Positions 8,044-61,762 of a stretch of 64,000 bases of DNA are shown piece by piece. Under the pieces are notes generated by a model, which made no database searches, was not told the origin of the DNA, and was given only the letters and a program-made list of their open reading frames with translations. Position 1 is the stretch's first letter; every line of letters starts with the position of its first letter. A program made the translations under genes and the position numbers. Location of the stretch: NCBI RefSeq assembly GCF_001584615.1, contig NZ_LQQC01000010.1, positions 620,001-684,000 of the forward strand, written 5' to 3'. Origin of the DNA: Brevibacterium ravenspurgense. GTDB lineage: Bacteria > Actinomycetota > Actinomycetes > Actinomycetales > Brevibacteriaceae.

Positions 8044-8067
8044 GCTGCGGGGCGGTTTCCCAGCCAG

Positions 8068-8138
8068 ACTTGCGCTTTAATGCAGATTCACGCGTTAATG
8101 CGGCGCATTAACGCGCAAACCTGCATTAGCGCGTGAAT
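8068..8138. repeat. 71-bp palindromic element, copy 1
   Basis: Four 18-bp motifs sit side by side around a dyad at base 8103: A> 8068-8085, B> 8086-8103, <A 8103-8120, <B 8121-8138. Motif A reads ACTTGCGCTTTAATGCAG; motif B reads ATTCACGCGTTAATGCGG. The 13-bp arms GCAGATTCACGCG and CGCGTGAATCTGC (8082-8094, 8130-8142) are perfect complements. It fills the gap between convergent apt and the macro-domain gene. The same element recurs at 9.2, 11.5 and 60.3-61.0 kb. Confidence 0.9.
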
Positions 8139-8211
8139 CTGCGTTGAGACGACGCGCTGTCCGAAGCGCAGAACTGCGTCAGCGCGTGAATGCGTCAGTC
8201 AGCAAGCCACA

Positions 8212-9153: not shown

Positions 9154-9242
9154 TGAAGCTCCTTTCTCGGTGGATTGGCACTCTCAGTGTCTCGCTTCAC
9201 TTGCCCCGATGGGAAGCATCCCCCATCACTGTCCCAGGCTGG

Positions 9243-9313
9243 AATCGCGCTTAAATGCAGATTCACGCGCTGATGCAGCGCATTAAAGCGCAAAGCTGCA
9301 TTAGCGCGTGAAT
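9243..9313. repeat. 71-bp palindromic element, copy 2
   Basis: Same A> B> <A <B arrangement as copy 1, centred on base 9278. Differences include an inner TGATGC in place of TTAATGC. It sits between the start of the DUF488 gene and the end of the BCCT gene. The preceding CCCAGGCTGGAATC is shared with copy 3 (before 11520), so the repeated unit extends left of the palindrome. Confidence 0.88.
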
Positions 9314-9331
9314 CTGGTTAGAAAGGAAACC

Positions 9332-11406: not shown

Positions 11407-11505
11407 GAAAGCAGAACAAAAGCACGAGGCGGAAGTCGCCTTCCGCCTCGTGCCTTTGGTTTGTGTGTTGTGTCGGCTCAGACAGCTGCCGCTGTCTGGC
11501 GGGCC
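11407..11505. repeat. 99-bp direct duplication, left copy
   Basis: Identical over 99 bp to 11668-11766. It holds a perfect hairpin (GCACGAGGCGGAAG and its complement) plus a copy of the last codons of the small gene that ends at 11739. The left copy is not attached to a gene and is best seen as a leftover of a local duplication. Confidence 0.92.
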
Positions 11506-11519
11506 CGTTCCCAGGCTGG

Positions 11520-11590
11520 AATCACGCTCTAATGCAGATTCACGCGTTAATGCAGCGCATTACAGCGCAAAGCTGCATTAAAGCGTGAGT
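11520..11590. repeat. 71-bp palindromic element, copy 3
   Basis: A> 11520-11537, B> 11538-11555, <A 11555-11572, <B 11573-11590. It lies exactly in the 162-bp segment between the two copies of the 99-bp duplication. Sequence to its right (GCGTTCGGGCGGCGCGCC) resembles what follows copy 1 (GCGTTGAGACGACGCGCT), so the family extends beyond the palindrome on that side too. Confidence 0.9.
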
Positions 11591-11667
11591 CTGCGTTCGG
11601 GCGGCGCGCCGAGCGAAGCGCACATCGACGACTGACCGGCGCACCCAACACCACAAACCAGCTGGCA

Positions 11668-11766
11668 GAAAGCAGAACAAAAGCACGAGGCGGAAGTCGC
11701 CTTCCGCCTCGTGCCTTTGGTTTGTGTGTTGTGTCGGCTCAGACAGCTGCCGCTGTCTGGCGGGCC
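11668..11766. repeat. 99-bp direct duplication, right (functional) copy, with terminator
   Basis: The right copy overlaps the 3' end of the minus-strand gene starting at 11996 and supplies its rho-independent terminator: a 14-bp GC-rich stem followed on the minus strand by TTTTGTT. This is the parental copy, because here the coding end continues into a full gene. Confidence 0.9.
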
Positions 11767-33140: not shown

Positions 33141-33192
33141 AAGATCCGGCCCGGTGGGAACCTCTGCGGTTTCCACCGGGCCGGATCTTTGT
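33141..33192. terminator. Bidirectional terminator between bdh and soxG
   Basis: A stem of more than 18 bp (33141-33160 paired with 33171-33190) ending in TTTGTGT on the plus strand and in a T tract on the minus strand after the complement of AAGATC. It separates two convergent units. Confidence 0.88.
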
Positions 33193-33253
33193 GTCAGGAC
33201 GCCTCTCAGGCCTCCGTGCGCTGTTCAAACAGCACCGGGGCCGGCCACACCAG

Positions 33254-33907
33254 CTAGGGGCGGTCAGCAAACTCCCGCATAGCGTCGAGCAGCCAGTTGG
33301 CGGTGTGATCGGCAAAGGATGCCCGCGGCATAATCCAGTACGAATCCTCATCCGTTCGCCACAGAGCGGCCGAGGACCCTGCGACGAGTGTGAGGATCGC
33401 ACTGCCGACCGGGAAGAAGTCCGGGTGCACGTCCACCTCGACCATTCTGCAGAGAACGTCGACGGCGTTCGGACCCGTCAGCTCGAGCACGGTCCGGTTG
33501 CCTGAAAGGTCAACGGCCTGCCCGCGGTGCTCCCCTACCGCCTCGGCGAGGATCCCGGCCAGAGCGGAACACGACAGCTCCCTTTCCGCCTCGTCACCGG
33601 CAACCAGCAGGAAGTCATCCGGACCGAACCACAGCACGTACCCGGTGACTGGCGCCTCGACCTCGGAAACCTGGCCCACCTTCCGCGGAAGTGGTGCACC
33701 GAGCACTTTCTCCAGCCCGTCGGCGGCCGGCCCGCCCGGTTCGGCGCGCAGGCTGATCTGCGTGCGGAACGGAACTTCGCGCAGCCGCACCCGCGACCCG
33801 CCAGCGGCGTCGAGTTCGGCGGCGCGTTCGGCAAGCGGGCTGCGGCGCAGGCTGAGGACGTCCTGTCGCGAAACTTCGGTCTGAGAAACAGCGGTGTTGT
33901 CAGCCAT
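33254..33907 (-). CDS. soxG: Sarcosine oxidase gamma subunit
   Basis: A 217-residue subunit of the heterotetrameric sarcosine oxidase. It belongs to the GcvT-like fold; [12 protein letters not shown] near the start and [20 protein letters not shown] are typical SoxG motifs. In the enzyme it packs near the tetrahydrofolate side of the alpha subunit. Its ATG overlaps the soxA stop by eight bases, with GGAGAA as binding site. Last gene of soxBDAG. Confidence 0.9.
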
Positions 33908-36900
33908 CTCGGCGTTCTCCTTCCGGATCGAACAGTACGGTCGGCCCGACTTCGACTTCGGCGAAGCCGCCCTCGCACGTGGCCATGAGCTTCTGGCCGA
34001 TGAGCGACGGCCCGTTTTTGATCAGCGCAAGCCCGAACGTGCGGCCCAGGGCCTGCGAATCGTAGCTGGAGGTCACGTGCCCCTGCATGGGAATCGGCGC
34101 CTTCGGCAGACCTTCGCCCGTGTAGTCGCCCAGGTCATCGGGGAATACCAGCTGGCTGCCCTCCGGCAGGCGCAGCTTGGGGTCGGTCGGCAGGACGCTC
34201 ACCAGCTGTTTGCGGTTCTCATCGACGTTGGCAAGCCGTGAGTACGACCGCTTGCCGATGAAGTCCTTCTTCAGCTTCGATACGACCCAGTCCATGCCGA
34301 GGTCCTGCGGTGTGACGGTCCCGTCGGTGTCTTGGCCGACCACGATGTAGGCCTTTTCGGCTCGCAGCACGTGCATGGTTTCCGTGCCGTAGGGCGTGAT
34401 GTTGAACTCCGCGCCGGCGTCGGCAACGTCTTCCCACACCTTGAGTCCGTAGTAGGTGGGCACGTTGATCTCATAGGCCAGTTCACCGGAGAAGGTGATG
34501 CGCACGACCCGGGCGTCGATGCCGGAGGCGAGTGTCGTGTTGCGGTACTCCATGAACCCGAATCCCTCTTTCGACACATCGAGGTCCGGGGCCATTTTGC
34601 GCATGACGTCGCGGGATTTCGGGCCGACGACGGCGATTGTGCTGTACTGCTCGGTCGCCGATGTGAACACCACGTCCAGTTCCGGCCATTCGGTCTGCGA
34701 CCACTCTTCGAGCCATTCGAGGACATCGGCCGCTCCGCCGGTCGTGGTCGTCATGAAGAAGTGGTCGTCTGCCAGACGCAGGGTCACACCGTCGTCGAAC
34801 ACCATGCCGTCGGGAGTGCACATAACCCCGTAACGGGCTTTGCCGACCTTGAGCTTGAGGTAGCCGTTGGTGTAGATCCGGTTGATGAACTCCGCGGCGT
34901 CCTTGCCCTTGATTTCGATTTTGCCGAGTGTTGTGGCATCCAGGAAGCCCACGGATTCGCGTACTGCCCGGCATTCGCGGGCAACTGCTGCGTCCATGTC
35001 CTCCCCGTCCTGCGGGTAGTACCACGGGCGCTTCCACTGGCCGACGTCTTCGAACACCGCGCCGCGGGCCACGTGCCACGGGTGGATGTTCGTCTGCCGG
35101 GCGGCGTCGTAGAGTTTGCCGACGCCGCGCCCGGCAAGTGCCGCAAACGCCACCGGGGTGTAGGGGGCTCGGAAGGTTGTTGTGCCGATCTGCCCGGGGG
35201 TGATCCGCCTGTTTTCTCCCGAGGTGCCGCTCACCACAGTGTTGATCGGCTTCTGACCGGGCTGGCCGGTTGCCAGAGCGCTGATTTCAGCACCCGTGAG
35301 AGCTTCCGCGATGAGGCCAATGGTGTTGACTCCGCCGATCTTCCCCTGGTCCACACCCGTGGAGATCGAGGTGTAGCGCTTGATGTGCTCAACGGACAGC
35401 ATGCCTGCGCCGGAGGCTCGGATGATGTCGCGGACGGTGTTGTCGCGCTGGAAGTCGACGAAGTATTCAGCCAGTGCGGACAGCTGTTCGGGCTCGGTGC
35501 CCAGTTGCTGTTCGGCGTCTGGGCCGGGAATGAACCACAGCTGGTCGGCCTGGCCGGTCTCAGTCACGCGCGCGGCTGCCGTTTCGGGGTCGTAGAAGGA
35601 GCTGGCCTCCCCCGCTGCGGCTGCTGCTCCGGCGGCGGTTCCTTCGGCGAGCGCACGGGCCAAGCTGTAGCTTCCGTTGAGGGCGCCGACGGTGTGCTGG
35701 CGTTCGACGGCGGCAGCCGGGATGAATCCGGCCAGCTGGTCGTCCCAGTACATGCGGCCCTGCCGCTGGGAGTGCAGGTGGACATTCGGCGACAGTCCAC
35801 CGGAGACTGCGAGCAGGTCAGCTTCTACGCGTTCCGCCTGGTGTTCCTGACCGCGCGGGGCGATCCACACGGCTTCGAGGCGGTCTTCACCTTCCGCTTG
35901 GACCACGGCGCTGCCGGGGCGCACCTCGACACCGGCGGCTCGTGCCGTATCAGCCTGCGCGGAGTCGGCTCGAGAATCGACAATGGTGACCTCGGCTCCA
36001 GCGCGTGCCGCATCGACTGCGGTGCGATAGGGGGTGTCGTGGGTGGTGAACAGAACGATCTTCTGTCCCGCCAGCACCCCGTAGCGGCCCAGGTACCGCT
36101 GGACCGCGGAGGCGAGCATGATTCCGGGGAGGTCGTTGTCTGCAAAGACCAGCGGGCGGTCAAACGCTCCGGTGGCGAGCACGACTTCCCCGGCGACCAC
36201 GTGCCACAGCCTTTGGCGCGACACTCCGTCATGGCGGGTTTCGCCCGCAGCCTTGTATGCCGAGTCGCGGTCTTCGAGTGCCACGAGGTAGTTGTTGTCG
36301 TAGGAGCCGACAACAGTTGTGCGCGACAGCAGGCGGACGTTGCCTGAGTCTCGCAGCTCCCGCACTGTCTGTTCAACCCACTGGGCTGCCGGCAGGCCGT
36401 CGATGACGCTGGTTTCGTCATCCGGCGCGCAGTCCAGCAGGGTTCCGCCGAAGGCGTGGTCCTGTTCGAACAGCACGACGCGCTTGCCGGAGACCGCGGC
36501 GGCCTGTGCTGCGGCAAGGCCCGCGGGTCCGGATCCGATGACTGCGACTTCGGCGAAGATTGTGCTCTTGTCGTATTCGTCTTCATCCGGCCTCGGATCC
36601 AGCTGGCCGATGCCTTCGAGCAGCTTCACGGACATGCCCTCGGAGATTTCCACTCGCGTTGCCGGGAGCATGGATTCATTGTGTTCGCCTTTGACCATCA
36701 CGAAGGCGTTGGGCTCTTCCGCACCGGCTGAGAGAATGCCGCGGGGGCGGCGCCGGTAGATGGAGTCACCCACGCGGATCCGCCCGTTTGCCAGCAGGGC
36801 CGAGGCAATCGTGTCGCCTGCCTGCCCGGTGTAGGTCTGGCCGTCAACGGTGAAGGTGACGGTTCGTTCGGATGTGATTGAACCGGTGCGCACCCGGTGC

Positions 36901-36938
36901 GACGTGTGTGTCTGCTCAGCGTGGTTCTGCTCAGTCAT
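33900..36938 (-). CDS. soxA: Sarcosine oxidase alpha subunit
   Basis: A 1012-residue subunit. The N-terminal 2Fe-2S-like domain ([22 protein letters not shown]) leads into an FAD/NAD-binding domain with [15 protein letters not shown] at about residue 133. From about residue 640 to the end is a GcvT/aminomethyltransferase domain ([39 protein letters not shown]) that transfers the methyl carbon to tetrahydrofolate. The enzyme oxidises sarcosine to glycine, H2O2 and 5,10-methylene-THF. Length and domain order are standard. Overlaps soxD by eight bases. Confidence 0.96.
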
Positions 36939-37284
36939 TGTTCTTCCCTCCAGCTGTGTGCGGGCCGGATTCCTGCGGGGCCGCCATGGGAGTTACGGCC
37001 GGCGGCTGCGGAAGTTCGGGTTTGGGGTCCGTCAGACGGTAGGTGGTGGAAATCGTGTAGCTCTGGGTGTCGCGCAGGACGTTGAACCATTTGCGGCAGC
37101 CGGCGGTGTGCGCCCAGCGTTCGTAGAACGAGCCTTTGGGGTTGTCCCGATAGAACACGTATTCGGCCCACTGTTCGTCAGTGAGTGCCTGAGGGTCTTC
37201 CGGGTAGTTCACGTGGGCTTGGCCGCCGTAGGTGTATTCGGTTTCAGCGCGGGGCCCGCAGTACGGGCAGTCGATCATGAGCAT
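36931..37284 (-). CDS. soxD: Sarcosine oxidase delta subunit
   Basis: A 117-residue zinc protein with the zinc motif CPYCG near the N-terminus, then [25 protein letters not shown], which supplies the other ligands (H and C). These motifs are diagnostic of SoxD. The C-terminus is a Pro-rich tail. ATG is preceded by GAGGAG. It lies 11 bases after soxB. Confidence 0.94.
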
Positions 37285-37295
37285 GATGACTCCTC

Positions 37296-38552
37296 TCAGT
37301 GGGCGACGGCGGCAGCGCCGTGTTCGTCGATGAGCTGGCCGGTGACAAAGCGCTCAAGGCTGAAGGGGGCATTGAGCGGATGGGGTTCGTCTTCGGCGAT
37401 GGTGTGTGCGTAGGTCAGGCCGGCTGCGGGGGCGCCTTTGAAGCCGCCGGTCCCCCAGCCGCAGTTGATGTAGAGCTGGTCGACCTCGGTTTTCGACACA
37501 ATCGGCGAGGCGTCGAGTGTCACGTCGACGATCCCTCCCCAGGTGCGCAGCAGGTGGGCGCGGGCGAAGATGGGGAACAGTTCAACAGCTGCTGACATCT
37601 GGTTTTCGATCACGTGGAATGAGCCGCGCTGGCCGTAGCCGTTGTAGGAGTCCACACCGGCGCCCATGACGAGTTCGCCCTTGTGAGCCTGGGATACGTA
37701 CACGTGCACGTGATTGCTCATCACGACATTGGGGTGGACCTGTTCGTGCAGTTCGGATACGAGCGCCTGCAGCGGATGGGACTGGATGGGCACCCGGATG
37801 CCTGCCAGTTCAGCCAGGACCGATGTGTGTCCGGCTGCGCACATGGCGACTTTGCCGGCTGCGATTGTGCCGCGGGTCGTCTGCACTCCCGTCACCCTGT
37901 TGCCGTCGAAGAGGAAGCCGGTGACTTCGCAGTTCTGGATGAGGTCCACGCCGAGTTCGGCGGCGCGCTTGGCATAGCCCCAGGCCACCCAGTCGTGTTT
38001 GGCGATGCCGCCGCGCGGCTGGTAGGTCGCGCCCATGACGGGGTAGCGAATGTCGTCGCTGATGTTGATGATGGGGCAGGCTTCTTTCACCTGCTGCGGA
38101 TCGAGCCATTCGGAGTCGATTCCGTTGAGGCGGTTGGCTTCGACCCGGCGGATGGATTCGCGCACATCCCCCAGCGTGTGGGCCAGATTGAGAACTCCGC
38201 GCTGCGAAAAGAACAGGGTGCAGTCGAGCTCTTCTTCCAGCCCCTCCCACAGTTTCAGCGAGTGTTCGTAGATCGCTGCGGATTCATCCCACAGGTAGTT
38301 CGACCGGATGATGGTGGTGTTGCGGGCCATGTTGCCGCCTGCCAACCATCCTTTTTCCACGACGGCGACATTCGTGATGCCGTGGTTCTTCGCCAAGTAG
38401 TAGGCGGTGGCCAGACCGTGCCCGCCGCCTCCGATGATGACGACGTCATAGGACTTTTTGGGCTCCGGATTTCCCCACATGAAATCGGGGTGTTCCGGCA
38501 GTTCCCGCTGATTCGCAGTCAGAACACCGGTGTCGATGCGCTTAATGCTCAT
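37296..38552 (-). CDS. soxB: Sarcosine oxidase beta subunit
   Basis: A 418-residue flavoprotein (DAO family) that binds noncovalent FAD through [17 protein letters not shown] and carries covalent FMN on a histidine near residue 170 (the [15 protein letters not shown] region is in the expected place). It performs the actual oxidation of sarcosine. The conserved C-terminal [16 protein letters not shown] motif is intact. ATG preceded by AAGGAG. First gene of soxBDAG; promoter in the 190-bp gap to the divergent regulator. Confidence 0.95.
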
Positions 38553-38742
38553 GGGCGGCTCCTTGCTATCGGCTCTGATGAGCAGGAATCGTTAAACGAC
38601 GACTGATATATAAGTGTCATATTAGAATTGCTGAAAAGGTCAGGTCAAGAGAACCGCACACCGATTTTTGCCTGATTTCTGCCAAGCCCAGACCGATCTC
38701 AACGCCACAGCGAGAAGACTCAACCACTGAAGGAGCCACACC

Positions 38743-39441
38743 ATGAGTTCAGCCCCAGCCGAACTCCCCCAGTGGGGGCCGACCGGCACCTCGTTAGCCC
38801 AGACTGCCTATGAGGCGATCAAAGAGAAGCTCATCCTGCTGCGCATCGGCCCCGGTGAGCCGATCAGCGAAACCGAGCTCGCAGACGAACTGGGAGCCGG
38901 CCGGACACCCATACGGGAAGCGCTCAAACGCCTGGAAGGCGATCACCTGGTGGTGAGCTACCCGCGGCGCGGAACTTTTGCAGCGGGCGTCGACATTGCC
39001 GAACTCGCAGCCGTGACAGAGCTGCGCAGAGCACTCGAACCCGTCGCGGCCAGCGCCGCCGCTGAACGCGCCAACGCGCAGCAGCGGGACGATCTGCGTG
39101 CCGCCATCGAGCGCATCCGCAGCTTTGTCGCAGAAGCCCCCGAGGATTCCGCCGGAGACGGCGGGGCCGCAGAAGCGTTTCTACGGCTGGACACCCTGGT
39201 CCACCACACCATTTATCAGGCCTGCGGCAATGCGCACATTGCCGACATCCTGGCCCGCTATCACTACCTGGCCATGCGGATCTGGGCGCTCGCCGCACAC
39301 CGCCTGCCTGGAATCATTGAGCACGCCGAAGATCACATTCCGCTGCTGGAGGCCATTGTCGACGGCCAAGCCGATAAGGCTGCAACCATGACAGTTGAAC
39401 ACATCGACGAATTCGAGCGCAGCCTGCGCGCCATGTTCTGA
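38743..39441 (+). CDS. GntR-family (FCD domain) transcriptional regulator
   Basis: A 232-residue regulator with an N-terminal winged helix (SETELADELGAGRTPIREALKRLEGDHLV) and a C-terminal FCD ligand domain (DTLVHHTIYQACGN). FCD metal-binding histidines appear in HHT and EHAEDH. It is transcribed away from soxB, and purU follows, so it most likely controls sarcosine use in response to sarcosine or a related metabolite. GAAGGAG sits before ATG. The 190-bp gap contains an AT-rich segment near 38606-38628 that could hold the operator; I could not define a clean palindrome. Confidence 0.9.
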   Translation: MSSAPAELPQWGPTGTSLAQTAYEAIKEKLILLRIGPGEPISETELADELGAGRTPIREALKRLEGDHLVVSYPRRGTFAAGVDIAELAAVTELRRALEPVAASAAAERANAQQRDDLRAAIERIRSFVAEAPEDSAGDGGAAEAFLRLDTLVHHTIYQACGNAHIADILARYHYLAMRIWALAAHRLPGIIEHAEDHIPLLEAIVDGQADKAATMTVEHIDEFERSLRAMF

Positions 39442-39547
39442 CGCTGACCGCCACCTTCGGGAAGCACCCAAACAGGGGCGCTGACCTGATGCAATGCCGG
39501 TACTGGTTCAATAGCTCCAGCCGATTTCACCAAACAAAGTGAGAGCC

Positions 39548-59379: not shown

Positions 59380-60241
59380 GGTGAGCGGCGCCTCGTACCC
59401 GGGCAGGTTGACAAGCCCCGCCCGGTGGCGGGCGGAAGTGCTGCTGGTCGCGGGAGTTTCGCTGGGGCAGTCGGCGGTGTACGCCGTCGTGCGGCTGGCG
59501 GACATGCTCACGCGCGCACCGCTGAAAGACAGCACTGCGGGGCTCAACCACAGCCAGTCCACGCGGGAAGTTTTTGACCTGGTGTACCAGCTGCTGGGTA
59601 TCGGGTTCACGCTCGTGCCGGTGGCGCTCGCGCTGTACCTCATGTGGCTTGACGGGCAGGGTTCCGTGCTCGAGCGGCTGGGACTGGGGCGCGGTGTTGG
59701 TCGTGGTGCGGGGCGCGGTGCCGGCCCGGATGCGGGATGCGATGCTCGTGGTGGCGGCACTGCGTCTGATGGTGTTTTGCGCGATGGAGCTCGGCGTGCC
59801 GCTTGGGGTGATGCCTGGCGTGCCGTTGGGCTGTTTGTGCTGATCGGAGCGGGAACGCTCGTTGTTTATGCCGCTGGGCGAGCGCTCGGTGTGACTGCGC
59901 AGATTTCGACGAACAACTTAAACGCCGCGTGGTGGACCGTGCCGGTTCTGCTGCTGCAGGCGGTGAAGAACGGTGTGCTGGAAGAAGTGCTTCTGCTGGG
60001 GTTCTTCTGGGATCGGCTGGAAAGACTGCGCTGGTCGCCGTGGGCGATCATCGTGGGGCTGGCGGTTTTCCGCGGAAGCTACCACCTGTATCAGGGGTTC
60101 GGCCCCTTTGTTGGCAATGTGCTCATGGGGCTGATCTTCGGCTGGCTGTACATGCGCCGGCGGAGGGTGATGCCGTTCGTCGGTGCGCACTTCCTGCTGG
60201 ACGCGGTCGGCTTTTTGGTGCCGGGCATCCTGCGCGGCTGA
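59366..60241 (+). CDS. CPBP-family intramembrane metalloprotease
   Basis: A 291-residue membrane protein. The Abi/Rce1-type motifs are EEVLLLGFFWDRL (glutamates), FRGSYHLYQG (Arg/His) and VGAHFLLDAVGFL (His), which place it among CAAX-processing and bacteriocin-immunity relatives. A Gly/Arg/Ala-rich cytosolic or outside loop (about residues 110-155) is unusual. It overlaps the RND gene by 14 bases, so it is likely co-translated. Activity and substrate unknown. Confidence 0.85.
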   Translation: MISGEVSGASYPGRLTSPARWRAEVLLVAGVSLGQSAVYAVVRLADMLTRAPLKDSTAGLNHSQSTREVFDLVYQLLGIGFTLVPVALALYLMWLDGQGSVLERLGLGRGVGRGAGRGAGPDAGCDARGGGTASDGVLRDGARRAAWGDAWRAVGLFVLIGAGTLVVYAAGRALGVTAQISTNNLNAAWWTVPVLLLQAVKNGVLEEVLLLGFFWDRLERLRWSPWAIIVGLAVFRGSYHLYQGFGPFVGNVLMGLIFGWLYMRRRRVMPFVGAHFLLDAVGFLVPGILRG

Positions 60242-60249
60242 GTGCGCTC

Positions 60250-61042
60250 GGCGGCTGGGCCAGACTTGCGCGGGCGAATCCGCTCGGGCGCTGGGCCAAA
60301 CTTGCGCGCTAATGCAGATTCACGCGTTAATGCGGCGCATTTGCGCGCAAAGTTGCATTAAAGCGTAAATCTGGGTTGGACCGGCGGCGTGCGTTGTCAC
60401 GGTGAATTGCGTTTGGATGGGTAAAGCTCTTACCGGACGGGGTAGCCCGCCGGGGTGGCTGGGCCAAACTCACGCGCTAATGCAGATTCACGCGTTAATG
60501 CGGCGCATTTGCGCGCAAAGTTGCATTAAAGCGTAAATCTGGGTTGGACCGGCGGCGCGCGTTGTCACGGTGACTGCGTTCGGCTGGTAAAGCCCTTTCA
60601 GGACGGGGTAGCCCGCCGCGGCGGCTGGGCCAGACTTGCGCGCTAATGCAGGTTCACGCGTTAATGCGGCGCATTTGCGCGCAAAGTTGCATTAAAGCGT
60701 AAATCTGGGTTGGACCGGCGGCGTGCGTTGTCACGGTGACTGCGTTTGGATGGGTAAAGCCCTTTCAGGACGGGGTAGCCCGCCGTGGCGGCTGGGCCAG
60801 ACTTGCGCGTTAATGCAGTTTCACGCGTTAATGCGGCGCTTTTACGCGCAAAGTTGCATTAAAGCGTGAAACTGGGTTGGACCGGCGGCGCGTGTTGTCA
60901 CGGTGACTGCGTTTGGATGGGTAAAGCTCTTACAGGACGGGGTAGCCCGCCGGGGCGGCTGGGCCAAACTTGCGCGCTAATGCAGATTCACGCGTTAATG
61001 CGGCGCTTTTACGCGCAAAGTTGCATTAAAGCGTGAATCTGC
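60250..61042. repeat. Tandem array of five ~167-bp units, each with a 71-bp palindromic element
   Basis: The 71-bp elements are at 60300-60370, 60468-60538, 60634-60704, 60801-60871 and 60968-61038, with start-to-start steps of 168, 166, 167 and 167 bp. The ~96-bp linkers are near-identical and share GGTTGGACCGGCGGCG, GTTGTCACGGTGA and GACGGGGTAGCCCGCCG. A left half-unit (GGCGGCTGGGCCAGACTTGCGCG) starts near 60250. The stretch lies between the CPBP gene end and the VOC gene end. No protein-coding gene fits it. Confidence 0.92.
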
Positions 61043-61087
61043 CTTGGCACGGCGACACTGCGCATCCACGCCGCAGCCGCCGCGCCC

Positions 61088-61762
61088 TTACAGAACGACG
61101 CGGCCCTGCGGTGTGGTGAAGGTGACGGACATGATGCCCGGCTCGCCATGCGGAGCCACCCAGTCGATGCCGATTTCCGGGATGGGCTTGTGGGCGTCGG
61201 TGCCCAGCCAGTCGCGCACGCGGTCGCGGCTTCCGGCGATCTGCAGCGATTCAATGGCAACAGCGTCGTCGCCGGTGAGTTCGCCGCTGCCGTCCAGCTT
61301 GTTCTGCGGGCGGGCTGATGGGTGCAGTTCAGCGGGGGAGACCCAGTGGATGAAGTACGGCAGCTGGCCGTCGGCGATGACGCCCTTCACGCCGATCTGC
61401 TTCCAGTGGATTTCCTCTGAGCCTTCCGGGGTGCGGTTGCCGTCGACGGCTTTGCGCTCAAGGCGATCCTCAACCTTGGCCAGGTTGTTGACGCTGACGC
61501 ACCACGCCATCCAGCCGCCGCCCCTGTCAGACCGCGCCCTTGTGGCCTGCCCGAACGGGGTTGCCAGCGCTGCCGGGTGCTCGAGGGCTTCAACGACCTC
61601 GAGGTAGTGCCCGTTTGCCAGCGGGAAGATCAGGTTCCGCGTTCCGAACCGCGGGTGGATTCCGCCGTCGTAGTAGGTGATGCCGAGTTGTTCTGCCAGA
61701 CGGTCAGCCGTGGCGTGCAGACCGTCCTGCTGAGCGGCGAACGAAACATGGTCCAGATTCAT
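61088..61762 (-). CDS. VOC-superfamily (glyoxalase-like) protein
   Basis: A 224-residue protein with two glyoxalase-like beta-alpha-beta modules. The first opens NLDHVSFAAQQDG with GTRNLIFPLANGHYLEVVE, and the middle has QLPYFIHWVSP. Members bind a metal and act on varied small molecules or bind antibiotics; the activity here cannot be given. A palindrome resembling a DtxR half-site pair lies 37 bp upstream, suggesting metal control. Confidence 0.82.
   Translation of the reverse strand: MNLDHVSFAAQQDGLHATADRLAEQLGITYYDGGIHPRFGTRNLIFPLANGHYLEVVEALEHPAALATPFGQATRARSDRGGGWMAWCVSVNNLAKVEDRLERKAVDGNRTPEGSEEIHWKQIGVKGVIADGQLPYFIHWVSPAELHPSARPQNKLDGSGELTGDDAVAIESLQIAGSRDRVRDWLGTDAHKPIPEIGIDWVAPHGEPGIMSVTFTTPQGRVVL

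Follow-up and report, generated by a model that had tools for sequence, protein, structure and literature searches.

Among the intergenic palindromes of bacteria, REPs are the best known; they form hairpins, and many have been linked to a RAYT transposase. ERIC sequences are imperfect intergenic palindromes of about 127 bp, which occupy orthologous positions and have no known transposase; we know of no interleaved four-site design among ERIC-like palindromes. The attC sites of integrons are likewise imperfect palindromes, composed of four boxes that pair in a nested manner, and lie next to variable genes. According to PMC3733652 and PMC8266576, REP, BIME and REPIN sequences are short, GTAG- or CGTC-tagged intergenic palindromes, which occur in many copies and often in convergent regions. 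Template switching is reported to homogenise the arms of inverted repeats (PMC8604942, PMC8794818).

The stretch of DNA analysed here (“the window”) comprises 64,000 nucleotides from Brevibacterium ravenspurgense. An earlier note on it, drawn up from the letters and their open reading frames, had described eight copies of a palindromic element with four motifs in a dyad frame. All eight copies were confirmed, and they have in common an architecture of four sites at fixed offsets; the sites measure 17 bp, rather than the 18 bp given before, and follow the consensus GAYTYRCGCKYWAATGC. They are ordered > > < < at offsets 0, 18, 38 and 56, are separated by 1, 3 and 1 bp, and yield an element of about 75 bp (73-77 bp). 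Site 1 begins at window positions 8067, 9242, 11519, 60299, 60467, 60633, 60800 and 60967, which places the first three copies one base to the left of their earlier starts (8068, 9243 and 11520). The best-matching partners had been said to cross each other, A with A and B with B, and this crossing (s1 with s3, s2 with s4) is statistically supported both here and in the sister species Brevibacterium sp. HMSC07C04. The definition of the two types did less well, as TTGCGC versus TTCACGCG (a pyrimidine-purine step, CA, TG or TA) is a poor marker; the types are better told apart by positions 10-12, TTT-like versus GCT-like. The pyrimidine-purine step at positions 5-6 is found in 240/240 sites of the window genome and in 78/80 sites of HMSC07C04. 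The features of the window are as follows.

8065..8141, unstranded: element 1, between the convergent genes for a phosphoribosyltransferase (apt-like) and a macrodomain protein
8067-8083 (+), 8085-8101 (+), 8105-8121 (-), 8123-8139 (-): sites s1, s2, s3 and s4 of element 1
9240..9316, unstranded: element 2, with a DUF488 gene on one side and a BCCT transporter gene on the other
11407..11505, plus strand: the left one of two identical 99-bp direct repeats that bracket the element 3 insert
11517..11593, unstranded: element 3, within a 162-bp insert missing from HMSC07C04
11668..11766, plus strand: right copy of the 99-bp direct repeat, a perfect match to the left copy
60297..60373, unstranded: element 4, first unit of a five-unit tandem array
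60465..60541, unstranded: element 5, array member
60631..60707, unstranded: element 6, array member
60798..60874, unstranded: element 7, array member
60965..61041, unstranded: element 8, last array member

The array of elements 4 to 8 has a unit of about 167 bp and is flanked by convergent genes for an Rce1-like (CPBP) and a glyoxalase-like protein.

The window genome amounts to 2.30 Mb in 14 contigs. The core pattern CGYKNWAATGC matches it 181 times, compared to 15 matches for a reversed control pattern, and a DNA query produced 87 matches on both strands. The genome-wide search proposed in the earlier note, carried out as a DNA search and then a weight-matrix scan of the window plus 13 stretches picked from the DNA-search matches, yielded at least 60 elements in 25 intergenic regions; since the scan presupposes the spacing, the absence of other spacings cannot be inferred from it. 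Single copies occupy 13 of the 25 regions and arrays of 2 to 7 copies the other 12, and the regions at C12:183k and C14 may be one. Outside complete elements there are four strong site matches (C5:22520 and three at C14:250-303) plus one weaker match, and core matches outside elements are few and scattered among the 100 of 181 listed.

That the element always lies between genes holds for 59 of 60 copies, which overlap no called gene by more than 10 bp (gene calls made here), and the remaining one runs about 14 bp into a predicted 3' gene end. Convergent gene context is found for 11 of 23 typed element regions, versus 24 of the 144 intergenic regions of a C10 stretch (p 0.0005); for this typing, the co-directional label of C7:72059 was assigned manually, and two regions located at the end of a stretch or contig were left untyped. 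The regions also cluster, with another one within 8 kb for 17 of the 25, where random placing gives an expectation of 3.9. A protein encoded between two arrays on C7 had no match in a Pfam search.

The distribution of the element is narrow. A sequence model found it in 2/57 genomes of the genus, those of the window and HMSC07C04, under stricter filters with which weak matches may be missed, and a DNA query against 59 relatives agreed (2 match). A genus-wide element is thus rejected. Scanning the genome_contigs collection (84,980 species, each represented by one genome, the window genome's own records possibly excluded) with the pattern retrieved 14 stretches, ten of them from HMSC07C04; the other four are single matches in unrelated organisms and are read as chance, a rough estimate being that about 4 are expected. 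The same pattern found no match in viral contigs, and the tandem array as a query found none in a plasmid collection, which leaves a plasmid or viral origin unsupported. In a small sample, 194 kb of loci from other Brevibacterium genomes, a search for the four-site design with any sequence gave three matches, of which one was a simple repeat and the others were weak. Between the window genome and HMSC07C04, ribosomal protein L9 shows 99% identity, compared to 82% with the next genome; by this measure the two stand apart from the other genomes compared. Confinement of the element to two sister species speaks against a role in essential housekeeping. None of the entries listed in literature searches described the four-site element; in the portion of PMC5719810 consulted, both occurrences of “palindrom” refer to CRISPR.

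HMSC07C04 harbours 20 elements (model and scan), none of which belongs to an intact tandem array; two have fragments nearby. Each of the 20 maps to a region whose orthologue in the window genome also holds the element (19 regions), a placement backed by matches to both flanks in 14 cases and to one flank in 6. Over 73 bp, six single-copy pairs are identical at 371/438 positions (85%) with zero positions lost. In the five pairs with usable flanks, 311/365 element positions are identical versus 375/717 in the flanking intergenic sequence (52% with gaps counted; 66% of 565 aligned positions); the C7:72059 pair was excluded from the flank figure, as its flank contains a gene (811/964 identical there). 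Third codon positions of 56 genes show 72% identity between the two species. For the most part, then, the repeat has been passed on in place and is under constraint, because all 20 sister elements are orthologous and conservation exceeds that of third codon positions (six pairs) and of the flanks (five pairs).

Constraint is distributed unevenly along the motif. Across 18 ortholog pairs, positions 7, 8, 9, 15, 16 and 17 underwent 0, 4, 5, 2, 2 and 3 changes per 72, and positions 2 and 11 underwent 25 and 24 changes of 72 each, which delineates a slowly changing core, CGC...TGC. Array regions were compared by their closest copy, which flatters conservation and lowers the change counts; rows index 1 and 7 of the 20 were left out of the motif-change and ortholog-rank comparisons, and the shared-substitution test used all 20. 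The orthologous region is the best of 25 in 10/18 pairs, the other ranks being 2, 3, 4, 5, 7, 18, 18 and 22. Identity to the closest orthologous copy averages 0.85; the mean is 0.83 when array copies are averaged, and for non-orthologous copies it is 0.76.

Within the window, element 1 (8065..8141) has an orthologous copy in HMSC07C04. Element 3 lies in a 162-bp insert flanked by the two perfect 99-bp direct repeats, and its counterpart site in HMSC07C04 has a single copy of the 99 bp and lacks the insert. Together with its left edge, the insert resembles 8047-8170, which is 3.4 kb away (80% over 124 bp, mainly the element). The insert and the 99-bp duplication suggest local template switching in replication, and a transposon causing a 99-bp duplication is a less likely origin of element 3. 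No counterpart of element 2 (9240) was seen at the corresponding place in HMSC07C04, and the junction is less clean than that at element 3. A strong hairpin within the 99-bp repeat (11412-11463 and 11673-11724) is probably the terminator of a flanking gene, now duplicated.

Of the two genomes, only that of the window has tandem arrays and one or more clean extra copies. The earlier suggestion of a small mobile repeat is borne out to this extent; against it stand the orthology of 20/20 sister elements, the constrained core and the failure to find a REP-type transposase. Searches for transposon genes covered PF01797 and PF00589, and neither the window genome nor HMSC07C04 contains a RAYT (Y1_Tnp, PF01797); among the 39 genomes searched a single one, outside the genus, has one, and control matches were obtained in 5/14.

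With REPs and REPINs the element shares its intergenic location, many copies, inverted pairs, tandem arrays and a preference for convergent regions; it differs from them in its length of 73-77 bp, its four sites, its crossing partners and the conservation of its positions between species. Near the ends of 80 elements, GTAG, CTAC, CGTC and GACG occur 2, 0, 13 and 6 times, compared to 3.8, 3.6, 12.7 and 12.6 at random places. REP/RAYT membership is therefore rejected, as neither GTAG nor CGTC is enriched and no gene for a Y1 transposase was found in the genome. An imperfect intergenic palindrome at orthologous positions, for which no transposase was found, is reminiscent of ERIC, which differs in length (about 127 bp) and sequence. 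A short non-autonomous repeat with some extra copies is MITE-like, but the one clean empty site shows no short target duplication (a 99-bp duplication instead), and a parent element was not found. Similar to attC, the element is an imperfect four-part palindrome near variable genes; unlike attC, its partners cross, and there is no sign of an extra integrase. An integron cassette array is rejected, the genome having as many full-length tyrosine recombinases as several relatives.

Rfam gave zero matches at gathering score in the window, on which basis a known structured RNA is rejected; 60200-61100 contains two sub-threshold matches to a miRNA family. Plasmid iterons are rejected as well: contrary to the “iteron-like” site of the earlier note, the copies are scattered over 25 chromosomal regions, their order is inverted rather than tandem direct, and there is no plasmid match. 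Its statement that no described family fits is supported as regards Rfam, which gave no gathering-score match. Concerted multi-base changes in inverted arms (single cases here) recall template-switched quasi-palindromes, from which the element departs by its two interleaved arm pairs and weakened nested pairing, features absent from the abstracts of PMC8604942 and PMC8794818.

Covariation between the arms was assessed in 44 elements, 25 from the window genome (one per region) and 19 of the 20 from HMSC07C04; index 1 of the latter, a near-duplicate of index 0, was excluded from the permutation, position-10, covariation and stem-energy tests. The crossing frame (s1:s3 and s2:s4) reaches a covariation score of 0.198 versus 0.153 for shuffled sequences and has 84 versus 56 doubly changed cells, both values reached by 0/500 shuffles; control frames slid out of register lie between 0.017 and 0.092. 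On two stricter counts the support is weaker: pairs changed on both sides number 18 versus 15.0 (23/500 shuffles reach this value), and further pair types 42 versus 39.7 (101/500). The proposed co-variation of the arms is thus upheld by the crossing score, which lies above 500/500 shuffles, and less firmly by the stricter counts. The nested frame scores 0.106 versus 0.155, with 500/500 shuffles higher, and is low on the stricter measures too (497/500 and 500/500 shuffles higher or equal). Related sequences can exceed shuffles with the covariation tool used, and the opposite outcome for the nested frame in the same sequences is therefore a better control than the shuffles.

In permutation tests on HMSC07C04, s1-s3 (p 0.005) and s2-s4 (p 0.02) match above chance and s2-s3 under chance (p 0.004). 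In the window genome, s1-s4 and s2-s3 are far under chance (z -3.6 and -3.3), and s1-s3 and s2-s4 exceed chance at positions 10-12 (p about 0.01) and are not significant over all 17 positions (p 0.19 and 0.07). The letters at position 10 alternate (TGTG or GTGT) in 19/44 elements, where about 4.8 are expected; TTGG or GGTT and TTTT or GGGG each occur in 1/44 (about 4.2 and 4.1 expected). Avoidance of a long hairpin is thus insufficient to account for the alternation, which points to a preference for crossing identity or to avoidance of identical neighbours as well. A finer match inside pairs of equal type is found in HMSC07C04 (p 0.009, 26 pairs) and is missing in the window genome (p 0.46, 32 pairs), and the CA/TG step by itself gave no clear covariation in the permutation tests. 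Identical substitutions shared between orthologs (20 rows) are in weak excess, numbering 7 versus 3.5 expected for s1-s3 (p 0.05) and 5 versus 3.4 for s2-s4 (p 0.25), and the nested pair s1-s4 is equally high (7 versus 4.2, p 0.11). In one ortholog pair, a concerted change from CACGC to CGCTC affects both partner sites. Overall, crossing covariation is present, strong on some measures and weak on others.

Predicted stem energies follow the same pattern. With RNA and DNA parameters, on both strands and in strict register, the crossing stems exceed 300 shuffled combinations in stability (z -2.6 to -3.7); the nested stem, taken in register, falls short of them (z +4.7 to +5.5). Of the 120 strand folds predicted for the 60 elements, 89 are mainly nested, crossing hairpins account for 30, and one is of another kind; as the nested fold is the commonest, the crossing stems remain candidate structures. 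Folding favours the sense strand in 8/10 co-directional cases of the window genome and for 4/6 such elements of HMSC07C04, a bias that is suggestive only, as it is small and the two species share those regions. On the plus strand, G-U exceeds A-C by 41 to 11 for s2:s4 of the window genome, and the other counts are mixed (28/23, 18/26 and 25/16).

The account that we put forward, as a quite possible but tentative one, is that of a lineage-specific repeat between genes which resembles REP and ERIC, has mostly been passed on in place and retained by selection, has had its crossing arms shaped, and is read by a putative sequence-specific factor; the reader and a boundary-type function are what we infer. 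Such a factor would recognise the four 17-bp sites, either as duplex or on a folded strand, and the positions it tolerates may have been shaped such that s1 can pair with s3, or s2 with s4, to give alternative stems of about 17 bp each. Identical neighbours and a nested hairpin free of mismatches would be avoided, since either would be processed or deleted, and partner matching might be renewed at least partly by template-switch copying between inverted arms. Copies would multiply through replication errors (tandem duplication and local template switching) and not by a dedicated transposase, and the likely net role would be to mark the ends of genes, frequently convergent ones, as a structural or boundary site. 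If a factor reads the element, the about 80 natural variants could serve to separate binding constraint, strand pairing and template-switch copying from each other. The repeat, for which no RAYT was found, has been kept at orthologous sites through divergence, and the crossing evolution of its arms weakens the ordinary hairpin.

The main rival is a neutral quasi-palindrome, a reading which we rate as unlikely and yet serious: replication template switching would homogenise the arms, unstable nested perfection and identical neighbours would be purged, and the crossing similarity would be a by-product. The multi-base concerted changes in partner sites, the insert with its long flanking duplication, the tandem arrays, the weakened nested pairing and the lack of finer covariation in the window genome all agree with it, as does the arm homogenisation reported in PMC8604942 and PMC8794818. 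This rival accounts for the crossing but not for the persistence of the core, as it leaves unexplained why core and spacing outlast flanks and third codon positions, and why all 20 sister-species elements stay in place. Constraint in a position-specific manner in all four sites, the pyrimidine-purine step at positions 5-6 and the fixed spacing would also suit an array that is bound by protein as duplex only, with operator-like sites for a nucleoid-type or insulating protein and two paralogous or two-state readers causing the A/B alternation. A protein-binding site, as the earlier note proposed, is plausible and would fit the element near HMSC07C04 rplI, which follows a terminator-like sequence (judged by eye); taken alone, however, it would not predict crossing covariation, as a single protein predicts neither covariation between copies of one genome nor the finer within-type covariation in HMSC07C04, and we deem the duplex-only explanation decidedly improbable. 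The terminator-like sequence preceding the element at rplI makes termination unlikely as the main role there, which touches on a further proposal, namely a hairpin acting at mRNA 3' ends as a bidirectional terminator, stabiliser or RNase III site. This RNA-level role, to which we give little credence, draws on the enrichment between convergent genes, the better folding of the sense strand in 8/10 and 4/6 co-directional cases and the strong G-U excess in one comparison; the strand asymmetry is small and comes from regions common to both species, the other G-U/A-C counts are mixed and the orientation given to an element is arbitrary, shuffled combinations yield a stronger nested fold, and the window lacks an Rfam match at gathering score.

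Finally, the elements might be attC-like recombination sites that mark entry and exit points of gene blocks, which appears most doubtful. Four element-bracketed gene blocks differ between the two genomes, from 3/8 stretch pairs that were all chosen for holding elements; of the other five pairs, four retain the genes between elements, which speaks against this reading, and one was not resolved. In the C10 stretch, which was not selected for blocks, 2/6 blocks of at least 1 kb fall in element regions (5/144 intergenic regions; p 0.014), but among convergent regions the same test gives just p 0.06. The count omits gaps below 1 kb and a 2088 versus 2467 base gap at C10:629-631k, a filter artefact, since the gene there could be aligned. 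A search for tyrosine recombinases in the window genome and HMSC07C04 revealed no dedicated integrase, and permissive regions may gather both elements and blocks. The blocks concerned, and a larger one next to the counterpart of the five-unit array, are listed here.

C5:15856-22493 (L046:5857-12494): complete type I Wadjet system JetABCD, bracketed by elements C5:15663 and C5:22607
C8:39782-43202 (L050:13783-17202): Cna_B surface protein of 1139 aa, between elements C8:39572 and C8:43393
L103:2652-6434: HMSC07C04 P-II/ammonium transporter block between two elements; two tandem elements in the window genome
L106:2071-5679: HMSC07C04 permease/TetR/amine oxidase block between two elements; two tandem elements in the window genome
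C7:129710-141902 (L205, L206): HMSC07C04 12.2-kb block with ABC transporter genes and a nitroreductase-family protein, absent from the window genome

In the Wadjet interval, HMSC07C04 carries a block that encodes an ABC transporter, a FAD oxidoreductase and an aldehyde dehydrogenase and is flanked by an element on a single side, and its stretch corresponding to the Cna_B protein lacks this protein and holds a single element at that place. The 12.2-kb block, which we take to resemble a modified-peptide (TOMM-like) cluster, adjoins the sole HMSC07C04 element at the region of the window's five-unit array. A bolder version, which we consider a long shot, would see a new chromosomal module, in which the interleaved inverted repeats form orthogonal crossing stems, the strand switches between two hairpins (or a partial pseudoknot), the core is recognised and the element serves as a boundary or landing site for the gain and loss of blocks without a dedicated integrase. 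If this were true, the gene blocks exchanged would include a Wadjet defence system, a surface protein and metabolic operons. Through a tie to the exchange of gene blocks, it would become possible to test how a local defence island arose.

Several minor observations concern the same regions. About 6.3 kb of the window (33183-39503) are missing from HMSC07C04, with no element nearby, and the ammonium transporter of the L103 block looks broken, as its reading frames overlap. The window genome and HMSC07C04 each encode two full-length tyrosine recombinases, as do G026, G004 and G020, and there are 3 matches in G016 and 5 in G003; beside the two full-length ones, the window genome contains a sub-cut-off tyrosine recombinase fragment at C10:42035-42115.
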